The position numbers and the translations under genes are program-made. 46,094 nucleotides of DNA, taken from IMG/VR virus record IMGVR_UViG_3300024057_000005, positions 1 to 46,094 of that record; one strand, given 5' to 3'. The stretch comes from a virus. Each line of letters begins with the position of its first letter. Within the stretch, counting starts at the first letter, position 1. Under the pieces are notes generated by a model. The model made no database searches. It was not told the origin of the DNA and saw only the letters and a program-made list of their open reading frames with translations. Shown here piece by piece: positions 32,183-45,747 of this stretch.

Positions 32183-32626
32183 TTAGTGCTTGAGGCTTTC
32201 GCCCACGGTTGTGTCGGTGTCGCTCATGAGGGCTTTCAGCTCGGCGCGCTCCCGCTTGGCCAGCTTCGCGGCCTTGGATTCCTCGCCGCGGTCGTCCCGC
32301 GTGCGTCGCCCCTCAAGATTCCAGCCGATGCCGCCGCGCTCCATGTTCCCGCGTGAGGCGTCGATGAACTTATCCACCTCAGCCTTGCAGGTGAACGCGG
32401 CGACTCCCTCGGAGTCCCGGTGGGGCGCCAGCTCGTCGTGGTCGCCCACCTGCTGGCTCTTGAAGTGATATTCAGGGGCAGCCGTCAGCATGACCCCCGT
32501 GGACATGATGCGGCGATAGCGTTTCCCCTCGCGCTCGATGTAGGACCCCACCTCGGGGCAATCCTTGAACTCGAAGAACTCCACGAGCTCCTCGCCGTCA
32601 CGAGCCTTGAATTGATAGTGCGGCAT
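32183..32626 (-). CDS. FmdB-like small protein without zinc cysteines
   Basis: A 147-residue protein starting MPHYQFKARDGEELVEFFEF, with GSYIEREGKRYRRIMS about 30 residues on: the layout of FmdB-type zinc-ribbon proteins, but only one of the four Cys remains. The C-terminal half is charged (RGEESKAAKLAKRERAELKA). ATG overlaps the preceding stop (TGATG). Function unknown. Confidence 0.55.
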   Translation of the reverse strand: MPHYQFKARDGEELVEFFEFKDCPEVGSYIEREGKRYRRIMSTGVMLTAAPEYHFKSQQVGDHDELAPHRDSEGVAAFTCKAEVDKFIDASRGNMERGGIGWNLEGRRTRDDRGEESKAAKLAKRERAELKALMSDTDTTVGESLKH

Positions 32627-32892
32627 CAGATCGAGCACCCCCCAGGCAACGCAGGGCCAGCAAACAGCTGGTCCTCCACGCCGTTCATCGCGTTGGCCCA
32701 GAAAGCCCGCTCCTTGTCGGCACGCAGTCGCTTGTAGAGGTCCGCGCGCTCCAGCTCCGTCAGCGGGATATCGACCCCGTTCTCGCGCCGCTCCCAGTGC
32801 TCGCAGACCATCGGCTGAGCTGCCGCGGCGAGCCCTGCGCAGGCCGCCACGCCGCATAGGCCAGTGAGGAATCGTCGTCGTGTCGTGTCCAT
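32626..32892 (-). CDS. Tat-signal protein with capsid-like segment
   Basis: An 88-residue protein. Residues 4-26 form a Tat-type signal (TTRRRFLTG, then Ala-rich hydrophobic core); export through the Tat system is inferred. Residues 53-80 align without gaps to residues 132-159 of this phage's capsid protein with 14 of 28 identical (YKxL, KExxFWANxxNxxEDxxFxxP). It lies between the portal and scaffold genes, and the leader is CCGGGAAAACCACATC. A related Tat-signal protein is at 42836-43054. Confidence 0.65.
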   Translation of the reverse strand: MDTTRRRFLTGLCGVAACAGLAAAAQPMVCEHWERRENGVDIPLTELERADLYKRLRADKERAFWANAMNGVEDQLFAGPALPGGCSI

Positions 32893-32915
32893 GATGTGGT
32901 TTTCCCGGCCTGAGC

Positions 32916-33161
32916 CTAGTCCTCGTGGTCCTCGCCGATGGTGTCCCCGTCGGGCTCGTCGAGGGGGGCGGGCGTCGAGCCTTGCCCCATGGCGGCACGC
33001 AACACGCGTTCGAATACCCCGCCAGCCAGGGGCACAGGCTCGGACGTGGGCTCATCGGAGGCGTCCGGCGTGTGGGCCTCGACGAGAACCTCGGTCACGT
33101 CGGCAGCGGCGTAGCGATGTCGGCCGGCTTGGCGTGCTTCACGTTCAGCTTTGCGGGTCAT
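32916..33161 (-). CDS. Small hypothetical protein
   Basis: An 81-residue protein with a basic N-terminus (MTRKAEREARQAGRHRY) and an acidic, Pro-rich C-terminus. Coupled to the preceding gene by TGATG. No domain recognised. Confidence 0.5.
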   Translation of the reverse strand: MTRKAEREARQAGRHRYAAADVTEVLVEAHTPDASDEPTSEPVPLAGGVFERVLRAAMGQGSTPAPLDEPDGDTIGEDHED

Positions 33162-33292
33162 CAGAGGGTTCCTTGCAACTTGCGGTGCTCGCGTAGTTCG
33201 TCTTGTAGGTCGGTAATCTTCAGGCGCAGGACCTGACGCGCGTCAGCGGCCAGCTCGCGTTCGTAGGCGGCTTCGGCGCGCAGGGCATCCAC
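33161..33292 (-). CDS. Short coiled-coil protein or downstream half of a frameshifted gene
   Basis: A 43-residue helical reading from GTG 33292 (VDALRAEAAYERELAADARQ and following heptads). It overlaps the gene at 33220-33369 in another frame, and a -1 shift at about 33295 would join the two into EAHKAAVDALRAE. Its stop forms TGATG with the next gene. Confidence 0.45.
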   Translation of the reverse strand: MDALRAEAAYERELAADARQVLRLKITDLQDELREHRKLQGTL

Positions 33293-33369
33293 GGCCGCTT
33301 GTGGGCCTCCAGCGAGGCGAACTCGGGGCACGCCGCCTTACGGTCCTCGTTCCAGTCAGCACCGCTCAC
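33220..33369 (-). CDS. Small hypothetical protein, possible upstream half of a frameshifted gene
   Basis: A 49-residue frame from GTG 33369, with GGAGG seven bases upstream and a GTGA overlap with the preceding stop. Its first 24 residues (VSGADWNEDRKAACPEFASL) look protein-like; the rest is Pro/Cys-rich and may be out of frame. See the -1 shift noted at 33161-33292. Confidence 0.45.
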   Translation of the reverse strand: MSGADWNEDRKAACPEFASLEAHKRPWMPCAPKPPTNASWPLTRVRSCA

Positions 33370-33533
33370 GCCTTCACCTCCGCGAGGTACGACTTCCGCG
33401 GGTTCTTGCGGTCGTACTTGGCCTGGATGACGTTCCCCGGCTCGGGAACACGCAGCTCGTGCCACGAGCCCCACATCAGCACGCGTTTGAAGCCCATGCG
33501 GGCCCAGCGGGTCAGCTGCTTGTCGCCGCTCAC
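33366..33533 (-). CDS. Small basic protein
   Basis: A 55-residue protein from GTG 33533 (VSGDKQLTRWARMGFKRVLM), with GTGA overlaps at both ends. The fold seems short beta (HELRVPEPGNVIQAKYD). Possibly virion-associated; no family recognised. Confidence 0.55.
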   Translation of the reverse strand: MSGDKQLTRWARMGFKRVLMWGSWHELRVPEPGNVIQAKYDRKNPRKSYLAEVKA

Positions 33534-33937
33534 GAGGGCACCTCCGGGGGATCCAGAGGGGGCTCAAACGCAGCGGCTGGACCCATGGAGACGCCGCCCA
33601 TCTCGCCAGGCGCTACGCCCCCAGCGGGGCTCGGGCCCTGGTCCCCTATGCGATAGCCCGCCTCGAAGGCCTCGGCCGTGCTGTACGTCGCGTGGCCATC
33701 GAGCTGCACCACGAGGTAGCCGCCCACCGCGGGGTTGTGCCGGCGGATCCACGCGGCCTCCAGCTTGATCAGCCCCAGGCCGCGCTCCACCGGCGTGAGC
33801 CACTGAGCGCCGTCCCTATCGCCGATAATCGGCTCGATCAGCTTGATCTGCACCGCCTGGACCACCTTGTGACAGGTATACCGCGGGAGCCGGTCCAGGA
33901 TAGCGTCGTGTTCTGCGTTGCCTGTTCGGAGGTTCAT
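33530..33937 (-). CDS. Hypothetical protein after portal
   Basis: A 135-residue protein, helical at the N-terminus (AILDRLPRYTCHKVVQAVQI), beta-like in the middle and Pro/Gly-rich at the end. ATG overlaps the portal stop as ATGA, so it is translated with it. Probably a head-assembly protein; not recognised. Confidence 0.6.
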   Translation of the reverse strand: MNLRTGNAEHDAILDRLPRYTCHKVVQAVQIKLIEPIIGDRDGAQWLTPVERGLGLIKLEAAWIRRHNPAVGGYLVVQLDGHATYSTAEAFEAGYRIGDQGPSPAGGVAPGEMGGVSMGPAAAFEPPLDPPEVPS

Positions 33938-36516: not shown

Positions 36517-37199
36517 AAGAGAATCTACAGAAACTAAATGACCTGAACTTCGACCTGGAGCTCGCCCGTCTGGGGGACGGAGACGCTCTGGCGCGACTGA
36601 TCTCACGCTCACGTCGCGCACTCGTTTCCGGAATCGGCGGCATCGCACTGCGCATGGGGATGCACGGAGTGGATGCCGAGGACGTCTTCCAGGATACGGT
36701 CGTTTGTTGCTTCGGGGCCATCCGCTCGATGCGCGCGGATACCGAGCGGGGCTTTCGGGCCTGGCTTCTGGGCATAGCCCGCAACCACCTCCTGAGTGCG
36801 CGCAAGGGGCACGATAAGAGGACGAAGACCGCTGGGGCCGGTGACGATTTCGGATTGATCCTGGTGCCGCACTTCGAGAACTTCGTGGCCCTCAAGCCTC
36901 CGGGGTGTCAGTTGCTCTGGAACCAGGAGGTCGAAGGGCGCTCGGTGCTCATGCTACGCGGGCTCTTTCACCTGGCCTGGAGCGATGTGGCCACGGTTCT
37001 CTCACGGCCTTCGGGGCACGCGGCGCGTGGACTGCACACCCGGGCGCGCAGGCACATCGACGATCCTGAATACGTCATCCTGTTGAGCCACCAGACCGCG
37101 CGTCCAGCCACTTCCGATTCCCGTCGAACAGACGCCCCCGCTCCGGCGTCTCAGGGTTCGCGTACGCCTCCACAGGCCACGCCACCCACGGGAGGCTGA
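36513..37199 (+). CDS. ECF-type RNA polymerase sigma factor
   Basis: A 228-residue protein. Region 2 covers about 15-100: an acidic DAEDVFQDTVV helix at 54-64 and the hallmark FRAWLLGIARNHLL at 81-94. Region 4 is at about 135-182, with a helix-turn-helix (FHLAWSDVATVLSR). The last 40 residues are a Pro/Ser/Thr tail antisense to the gene at 37075-37410. It would redirect host RNA polymerase to phage promoters. The start is ATG 36513 from the ATGA overlap; a longer form from 36495 is less likely. Region 4 lacks the usual Glu-Gly repeats but keeps the fold pattern. Confidence 0.8.
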   Translation: MKENLQKLNDLNFDLELARLGDGDALARLISRSRRALVSGIGGIALRMGMHGVDAEDVFQDTVVCCFGAIRSMRADTERGFRAWLLGIARNHLLSARKGHDKRTKTAGAGDDFGLILVPHFENFVALKPPGCQLLWNQEVEGRSVLMLRGLFHLAWSDVATVLSRPSGHAARGLHTRARRHIDDPEYVILLSHQTARPATSDSRRTDAPAPASQGSRTPPQATPPTGG

Positions 37200-37410
37200 G
37201 CCACTCGAAGAGGTCCCGCCCGACCGCCTCGGGGTCCTGGACGAGTCCCTCGTAGCTCAGAAGGTACACGGGGGCCTCGTGGGCAAGCGCGAGCGTGAAG
37301 ACGGCCGTGCGCATCGTGTGCACGGTGTCGGGGAAGTTGGCGCCCTTGTGGTGGACCTTGTGGGCGTTGGACGCCTTCCGCGTCACGGGGCCGGCGAAGC
37401 CGCTCGCCAA
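37075..37410 (-). pseudogene. Sulfotransferase-like fragment
   Basis: A 111-residue frame from TTG 37410. Residues 45-95 resemble the C-terminal half of sulfotransferases (PVYLLSYEGLVQDPEAVGRD, then LFEWLSLP). The N-terminal P-loop that binds PAPS is absent, and the frame is closed upstream by TAG. It is probably a remnant. It overlaps the sigma-factor tail antisense by 125 bases. It is the only trace of sulfate-transfer chemistry besides the sulfatase. Confidence 0.5.
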
Positions 37411-42624: not shown

Positions 42625-42846
42625 CTACTTCCGTCGGAGGGTTTCGCGTGGCGCGCTACGGATATCCACCGAGGTCCTGAGTCCGCGGACGGAGAGGCCT
42701 CTCTCTAGTTCAAAGGGCGTGAATCCAGGGCCGGCAGTATAGCGGGCGAAGAAATAGGCGAGCAAGGACGGGGAGGCCGGGAGCTTCAGAAAGGGCGGGG
42801 CGCCCCTCTGATGGCCACACTTGGCGCAGGGGGGCTTACTGGCCAC
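42625..42846 (-). CDS. Small zinc-knuckle protein
   Basis: A 73-residue protein from GTG 42846, which overlaps the upstream stop. It begins VASKPPCAKCGHQRG, a single CxxC, followed by hydrophobic and basic parts. Function unknown. Confidence 0.45.
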   Translation of the reverse strand: MASKPPCAKCGHQRGAPPFLKLPASPSLLAYFFARYTAGPGFTPFELERGLSVRGLRTSVDIRSAPRETLRRK

Positions 42847-43054
42847 AAGGGTAGGAGTGGATAAAGCGGATGGGCTCGATGCGCTGGACGATGGGTAGGT
42901 CCTCGAAGGTGCGGCCCTTGTCCTCCTCGTCCCCACCGAAGAACCAGAGCTCATCCCATTGATCCGAATAGAGGCGCTCGCAACCCTCCGCCCGCGGCGC
43001 GACCGCGACCCCGGCCGCGGCGAGCATCCCTGTCATAAATCGGCGGCGGTCCAT
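42836..43054 (-). CDS. Tat-signal protein with portal-like segment
   Basis: A 72-residue protein. MDRRRFMTGMLAAAGVAVAP is a Tat-type signal with the RRRFxTG core. Residues 35-53 (ELWFFGGDEEDKGRTFEDL) closely resemble portal residues 510-529 (WFFGGNFEEGSGGTY, then ADL). The remainder ends with HSYPCGQ. It is coupled to the upstream gene by TGATG. Similar design to the protein at 32626-32892, whose segment resembles the capsid protein. Function unknown. Confidence 0.65.
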   Translation of the reverse strand: MDRRRFMTGMLAAAGVAVAPRAEGCERLYSDQWDELWFFGGDEEDKGRTFEDLPIVQRIEPIRFIHSYPCGQ

Positions 43055-44335: not shown

Positions 44336-44371
44336 GCCCCGCAGTCGCCCCCACGGCTGCGGGGCTTTTTT
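44336..44371 (+). terminator. Rho-independent terminator
   Basis: GCCCCGCAG and CTGCGGGGC with a 12-base loop, followed by TTTTTT, right after the membrane cassette. Its T-run overlaps the stop codon of the converging sulfatase gene. Confidence 0.85.
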
Positions 44372-45638
44372 ATTGGGCGTCGATGAACGCGGAGAGCTTC
44401 GCCCAGGTCCCGGGCAGCGCGCCGGCGGGCAGGGGGTTCTCCTCGAGAGGGTCGGCCTTCAGGTCGTAGAGCGTTTCCACGCCAAAGACCCGGCGCAGCT
44501 TGTACCTCTCCGTAAAGGCGGCCTCGTCGTGCTCGGTTCCGTCGTCTCGAACGTGGCCTGCGTATCCGATGGTGCGGGTGGGTGGGCCGGTGGGTCCGTG
44601 AACCAGCGGGAGGAAAGAGAGCGAGTCTTCAGCCCATAAGGGAGGAGGAGCGCCGACGATTTCAGCGAGCGTTGCAAGAATGTCTGTAGTGCAAACCAGT
44701 CGGCCGCACTCTCGTCCACCCAATACACCTGGTCCTCGAACGAGTACAGGGACATTTATTCCTCCTTCGAAGGTTGTCCGCTTGGCCTTGTCGGGGTCAA
44801 CGCCGGGGGCGACGTTGCCGGAGAAGGTCCCGTTGTCTGCGATGAAGAAGACCCAAGCGTCGTCCGGGATCGCGCCAAGGAGGCGGCCCACCTCCACGTC
44901 GAGATTTCTAACCATGGCCTCAAACTGCTCGCGATCGGTTCGCCCCACCTCCTCGGGAGGTAGATGTAGCGGTATGTGCGGACTGTGAAACGAGACAATC
45001 GCGAACCTTGGGCCCGGAGTGCCGGAAGCCCAATCAATGGCCGCGTCCACCTGAGCTTTAGTGGCGTATCCAGTCTCCTGCGTGATCGTTCCATCGTCTA
45101 CCCGTTGCCAGTCGTAAAATCCGAAGCTGTTACAAGCCCCACCGCTCGCAGAAAGAAGCGGCGGGCCCCCGGCTCGCCACGCGGTGAAACCTACCTCCAA
45201 CGGGGCATTCTGCCACCCACTCATGACCGACCCCGTGTGCCACTTCCCGAAGAACCCAGCGGTGTAACCCGCGGCAGTTAGGACATTCGAGAGGTTTGGG
45301 CGGCTTGGGTCGAGAATCGGAGCGGCGAGGGGGTGCGGGAACGGGTTCGTCGGGTTGTCGCGACATTCGGACCGGAAGTGCCTCGGGTTGAACTCGCCAT
45401 AGAGCATGGACCACCGAGTCGGTGCGCATGTCGGCATGGAGTAGCCTCGCGTGAAGGTTACCCCGGACGCAGCGAGGGCGTCGAGGTTCGGCGTGTGGAT
45501 CAGGTCCAGGTCCGAACGCGAGAGGTCATCCACGATGATCAGGACGATATCCGGGGGCGGGGGTGAGGGCCTGACAAGAACGGGCAGGGTTACGAACACC
45601 GCGGCGGTGGCGAGGAAGAGCGCGAGAAGTTTAGCCAT
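44370..45638 (-). CDS. Secreted arylsulfatase-type sulfatase
   Basis: A 422-residue type I sulfatase. After a signal peptide (LLALFLATAAVFVTLPVLV) come the metal-site DIVLIIVDDLS (Asp37, Asp38), the formylglycine site CAPTR with Cys71, GKWH near 141, PHIP and ADNG motifs, and a closing FEGGINVPVLVRGPG. The Cys must be oxidised to formylglycine, usually by an FGE enzyme, which this genome lacks. ATG 45638 is chosen because the tRNA-like element lies just upstream. The protein is expected to desulfate surface or extracellular polysaccharide. Confidence 0.85.
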   Translation of the reverse strand: MAKLLALFLATAAVFVTLPVLVRPSPPPPDIVLIIVDDLSRSDLDLIHTPNLDALAASGVTFTRGYSMPTCAPTRWSMLYGEFNPRHFRSECRDNPTNPFPHPLAAPILDPSRPNLSNVLTAAGYTAGFFGKWHTGSVMSGWQNAPLEVGFTAWRAGGPPLLSASGGACNSFGFYDWQRVDDGTITQETGYATKAQVDAAIDWASGTPGPRFAIVSFHSPHIPLHLPPEEVGRTDREQFEAMVRNLDVEVGRLLGAIPDDAWVFFIADNGTFSGNVAPGVDPDKAKRTTFEGGINVPVLVRGPGVLGGRECGRLVCTTDILATLAEIVGAPPPLWAEDSLSFLPLVHGPTGPPTRTIGYAGHVRDDGTEHDEAAFTERYKLRRVFGVETLYDLKADPLEENPLPAGALPGTWAKLSAFIDAQ

Positions 45639-45655
45639 GGGCTGCGCATAGTAGG

Positions 45656-45747
45656 GTGCCCCGGGCTGATTCGAACAGGCCATCGCCGCCCGAATTGCGG
45701 CTCGGAGCCCCAGAAAGGCGGTGCTCTTGCCATTGAGCTACGGGTGC
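45656..45747 (-). tRNA. tRNA-Arg(UCU)-like gene with 19-nt insertion in anticodon loop
   Basis: The minus strand has a standard D arm (TAGCTCAATGGCAAGAGCA), a CCGCC anticodon stem, the loop TTTCTGG (anticodon TCT), a matching GGCGG stem half, a five-base variable loop and a TTCGAAT T-loop. Between position 37 and 38 lies about 19 extra bases (GGGCTCCGAGCCGCAATTC). The T-stem has one mismatch, and the outer three acceptor pairs (GCA against GCA) do not pair. It may be decayed, an att-like tRNA fragment or an unusual intron-bearing tRNA. CCA is not encoded. Confidence 0.55.

Follow-up and report, generated by a model that had tools for sequence, protein, structure and literature searches.

Phages are well known to encode exported accessory proteins by which later phages are excluded, SieA of phage P22 being an example (PMC10883804), and in Ty1 the restriction factor p22/p18, a separate product, corresponds to part of the capsid protein of that element (PMC4599808, PMC8458377), a piece which is half of Gag and which targets Gag (PMC4599808). 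Here we analysed P0001, a small gene of the IMG/VR virus record IMGVR_UViG_3300024057_000005, whose product has a twin-arginine translocation (Tat)-type signal and a segment resembling the predicted major capsid protein of the same phage; the whole stretch of DNA that was analysed, positions 1 to 46,094 of that record (46,094 nucleotides), is called the window below. Like those for HK97 gp15 and P22 SieA, P0001 is a small accessory gene located among late genes or close to them, and its product would, as theirs do, act in the envelope; no sequence relation was found between either of them and P0001. To our knowledge, neither HK97 gp15 nor P22 SieA is a Tat substrate or carries a capsid-like segment, and the literature that was searched had no example of a phage exclusion protein exported through Tat. 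Compared with Ty1 p22/p18, P0001 has just 29 capsid-like residues, at 48% identity, plus an export signal. A short capsid segment is also the recognised element in the case of the T4 Gol peptide (named in PMC12926258), which is sensed by Lit; Gol belongs to the capsid itself and triggers host defence, and beyond this likeness there is no relation between it and P0001.

An earlier note, made from the sequence alone, had described here an open reading frame (ORF) for a Tat-exported small protein carrying a segment of the phage's own capsid protein. The ORF lies where the note had put it (Table 1), and the Tat-type signal that it read at the N-terminus, MDTTRRRFLTGLCGVAACAGLAAAAQ, is recognised by a dedicated model, precisely by the NCBI Tat-signal model TIGR01409, with 19.8 bits against a cutoff of 16.7. 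Hydropathy averages 1.9 over residues 8-25. We considered a spurious ORF unlikely, given the Tat signal, the gene-like GC content at codon positions 1, 2 and 3 (0.70, 0.53 and 0.80, respectively) and the gene junction, in which the stop codon of P0001 and the start codon of the gene after it share bases (TGATG). From its signal we infer that P0001 is probably exported through the Tat pathway of the host. The mature part, of about 63 amino acids (aa), contains the two cysteines Cys30 and Cys86, and a single-sequence structure model places a hairpin at residues 29-43 and a helix at residues 46-69, with block values of the predicted local distance difference test (pLDDT) of 78-84 over residues 31-60 and of 84, 82 and 66 over residues 41-70. 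This modelled hairpin and helix, together with the Tat signal and the two mature cysteines, points to a miniprotein that is compact, closed by a disulfide, exported and made alongside the head genes. All the matches of a fold search with the model had expectation (E) values of 5 or more, and homologs of P0001, sought in IMG/VR viral contigs, GTDB genomes, phage records, Pfam, PHROGs and PDB, yielded nothing useful; Pfam, PHROG and NCBIfam gave no family match outside the Tat signal, and a scan of viral contigs for MDRRRF-type Tat starts gave no comparable miniprotein.

The 14 identities in 28 positions that had been counted by eye between P0001 residues 53-80 and capsid residues 132-159 are exact, and pairwise BLASTP extends the gapless match by one position (residues 53-81 with 132-160; 14 of 29 identical; 33.5 bits; E = 3e-7), so that the similarity does not fade to an E value near 1, as the earlier note had allowed that it might. 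The profile alignment that the note proposed gave E = 9e-6 (hhalign) for P0001 against the two known capsids, that of the window and that of one relative; the wider set of related phages that it had in mind reduced to this single one. Structure prediction of both segments was informative on one side only: in the P0001 model the helix at residues 46-69 takes in the first part of the segment, and the capsid model, in which one long helix covers residues 123-154, was discarded as too poor (mean pLDDT 29).

Shuffling the capsid sequence against P0001 gave p = 1.6e-7 per pair, and shuffling mature P0001 against all the window genes gave p of about 2e-5; among all the pairs of the 40 window genes, moreover, the P0001-capsid pair was the top one (E = 5.5e-5). 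Reversed-sequence controls produced nothing comparable, except for proteins compared with their own reverse, a known artefact. As a further control we considered 158 small ORFs of six phages, and within-genome matches of at least 33 bits were reached by two of them, both in phage Xkcd426, one match being restricted to residues 1-24 of each ORF and the second joining residues 1-29 and 7-35 (these may be repeated DNA). Within this genome, the P0001-capsid match is statistically real. From the all-against-all E value we estimated that such a score would occur by chance about once in several hundred windows, hence in well under one percent of them. Coincidence still has room, because the finding was picked from a scan of unknown size.

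Table 1. Positions in the window of P0001, P0003 and the features compared with them
Feature	Position	Strand	Basis
P0001, Tat-signal miniprotein, 88 aa	32626..32892	-	ORF and translation, TIGR01409, TGATG overlap, GC at third codon positions 0.80
Tat-type signal, P0001 residues 1-25	32818..32892	-	TTRRRFL motif, hydrophobic stretch, possible cleavage AAA/Q
Capsid-like segment, P0001 residues 53-81, YKRLRADKERAFWANAMNGVEDQLFAGPA	32650..32736	-	BLASTP E = 3e-7, hhalign E = 9e-6
Capsid residues 132-160, matched by P0001	30599..30685	-	BLASTP, hhalign
Predicted major capsid protein, 466 aa	29678..31078	-	Gene order portal, small gene, scaffold-like gene, capsid; 71% identical to L003 counterpart
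Small-gene cassette (135, 55, 81 and 88 aa), portal to next conserved head gene	32626..33937	-	Absent from relative
P0003, small Tat-type gene, 72 aa, Cys25 and Cys70	42836..43054	-	Tat-like signal, cysteine pattern
Portal-like stretch, P0003 residues 35-53, ELWFFGGDEEDKGRTFEDL	42896..42952	-	BLASTP, hhalign
Portal residues 544-563, matched by P0003	34375..34434	-	BLASTP, hhalign; portal by phrog_156

P0001 belongs to a head-gene operon with the order portal (identified by phrog_156, E = 9e-7), small genes, a gene at 32183-32626, a scaffold-like gene and the predicted capsid gene. The gene at 32183-32626 (147-aa frame), between P0001 and the scaffold-like gene, is conserved and has no family match. 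The capsid assignment is itself a prediction, based on gene order and on one weak PHROG match of the relative, whose capsid (L003:2214-3578) resembles the phrog_9953 major head protein at E = 0.096; the family formed by the two capsids matched nothing clearly in Pfam, PHROGs or PDB. This relative, L003/L012 (IMGVR_UViG_3300023481_000126), was the lone related phage contig found, and further scans of viral contigs and genomes with capsid and portal returned either it or nothing. L003 is colinear with the window from the portal through the tail genes; its portal gene runs up to 731 and is followed at 733 by the next conserved gene, hence the four-gene cassette that includes P0001 is missing. The two capsids are 71% identical. 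P0001 is, judging from gene content in the one relative available for comparison, an accessory gene and not a needed part of the capsid. The 135-aa gene of the cassette (33530-33937, minus strand) has distant relatives scattered across unrelated phages, outside their head genes, where they sit among accessory genes or form parts of longer proteins; it resembles the N-terminal parts of phage proteins whose annotations include DUF2829-domain protein and capsid decoration protein. Elsewhere in the window, 44370-45683 (minus strand) encodes a predicted secreted sulfatase (Pfam Sulfatase, E = 9e-29), an unusual phage cargo that may hint at the host type, and a short ORF at 37075-37410 (minus strand) is weakly like sulfotransferases (Sulfotransfer_3, E = 0.002, under the curated cutoff).

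The only other small Tat-type gene of the window is P0003, which scores 14.3 on TIGR01409, just below the cutoff, and whose start overlaps the stop of its upstream gene. P0001 and P0003 have a common build, i.e. a Tat-type signal followed by a mature part with Cys-Glu near its start, and they alone, among the 40 window genes, have a cysteine third from the end. Common descent of their mature parts was also considered and found unsupported, the global alignment not being significant. P0003 in turn matches the portal at 12 of 20 positions (single-pair BLASTP E = 1e-4; hhalign profile E = 6e-5), with a score attained by 2 of 1500 shuffles (p of about 1e-3); because 26-bit matches, the level of this one, occur in a few percent of the control small ORFs, we treated the portal likeness as a lead and not as a result.

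The reading that we prefer, with a probability of about 0.42, is that P0001 is a Tat-exported, disulfide-closed envelope accessory protein of the late head operon. Precisely, an accessory (moron-like) gene within this operon would give a miniprotein exported folded via Tat; its mature hairpin and helix, probably closed by a Cys30-Cys86 disulfide, would then act in the host envelope, most plausibly by altering the cell surface or by excluding later phages. We were led to this reading by the TIGR01409 score above cutoff, by the hairpin and helix modelled with block pLDDT of 78-84 over residues 31-60, by the same two-cysteine layout in P0003, by the absence of the cassette from a phage with so similar a capsid, and by the scatter of the relatives of the 135-aa cassette member over unrelated phages. 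Against it weigh the lack of any P0001 homolog with a known role among the collections searched, the fact that superinfection exclusion is suggested solely by analogy with what small accessory proteins exported by phages generally do, and a capsid match in excess of what a purely incidental helix predicts from the shuffles and the control ORFs. The capsid-like helix itself may have been borrowed, but we lean slightly to an amphipathic helix of incidental or convergent origin. A capsid-assembly role fits badly with export and with the lack of P0001 in the relative, and interference with assembly is hard to square with a protein that would leave the cytoplasm.

As to the segment only, and compatibly with an envelope accessory protein, we give even odds that two amphipathic, charged helices agree at 14 of 29 positions by chance, the most striking pair having been picked from a large scan. 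In fact, a motif scan of viral contigs for KExxFWxN...ED returned, besides the relative's capsid, nothing but unrelated proteins, and among unrelated viral proteins a handful contain KExxFWxN(5)ED, a frequency near random expectation; the low per-window rate estimated above still leaves such a score to be expected now and then, whereas the shuffles within this genome were far exceeded and 33 bits were reached in one control phage only, near ORF starts. The competing view, which we hold to be rather unlikely, is that a piece of the capsid gene, comprising the helix and possibly the turn before it, was duplicated and joined to a Tat signal, giving a decoy or exclusion factor kept by selection for binding a partner of the capsid helix, with P0003 as a portal-derived sister. 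The pairwise E value, the proteome-wide p values of P0001 and of the P0003-portal pair, and a segment identity higher with the phage's own capsid (about 47-48%) than with that of the relative (41%) speak for it, as does an ERRxN motif ahead of the segment in P0001 and in the capsid alike, shifted by one residue between them; this N-terminal extension has p = 0.009 in an anchored ungapped test but p = 0.15 in a gapped one, and the C-terminal flank has p = 0.34. At the DNA level there is no evidence of recent copying, because the two segments are identical at 52 of 87 nucleotides and use the same codon at 12 of the 14 shared residues, where codon usage alone predicts 9.5 (p = 0.10). Matches such as that of P0003 are, moreover, not rare among control ORFs, in the virion such a capsid helix is probably buried, and export would take P0001 away from assembly. 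Of the claim that P0001 carries a segment of the phage's own capsid, a non-trivial resemblance thus stands and common descent is at most a possibility, no homologs having been found and the flanks being unclear and the codons neutral. Least probable of all is a minor virion or head-assembly component sharing a docking helix with the capsid: the position of P0001 between portal and scaffold-like genes would suit it, but the Tat signal, and the absence of P0001 from L003, which has the same head module, would not. That the phage encodes a whole class of Tat-exported, disulfide-closed miniproteins which present, in the host envelope, short imitations of its own assembly proteins (a capsid helix in one, a portal loop in the other) is improbable too, if less so; for example, they could saturate a receptor or another host factor by which capsid or portal elements are sensed, or of which these elements make use.

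Should the P0001 segment really come from the capsid, this phage would be the first known to us to export part of its own capsid protein, and capsid elements would be expected to have a partner in the envelope. Otherwise, the two Tat-type, two-cysteine miniproteins of this lineage, represented here by only two contigs, would still be an undescribed sort of phage accessory protein.
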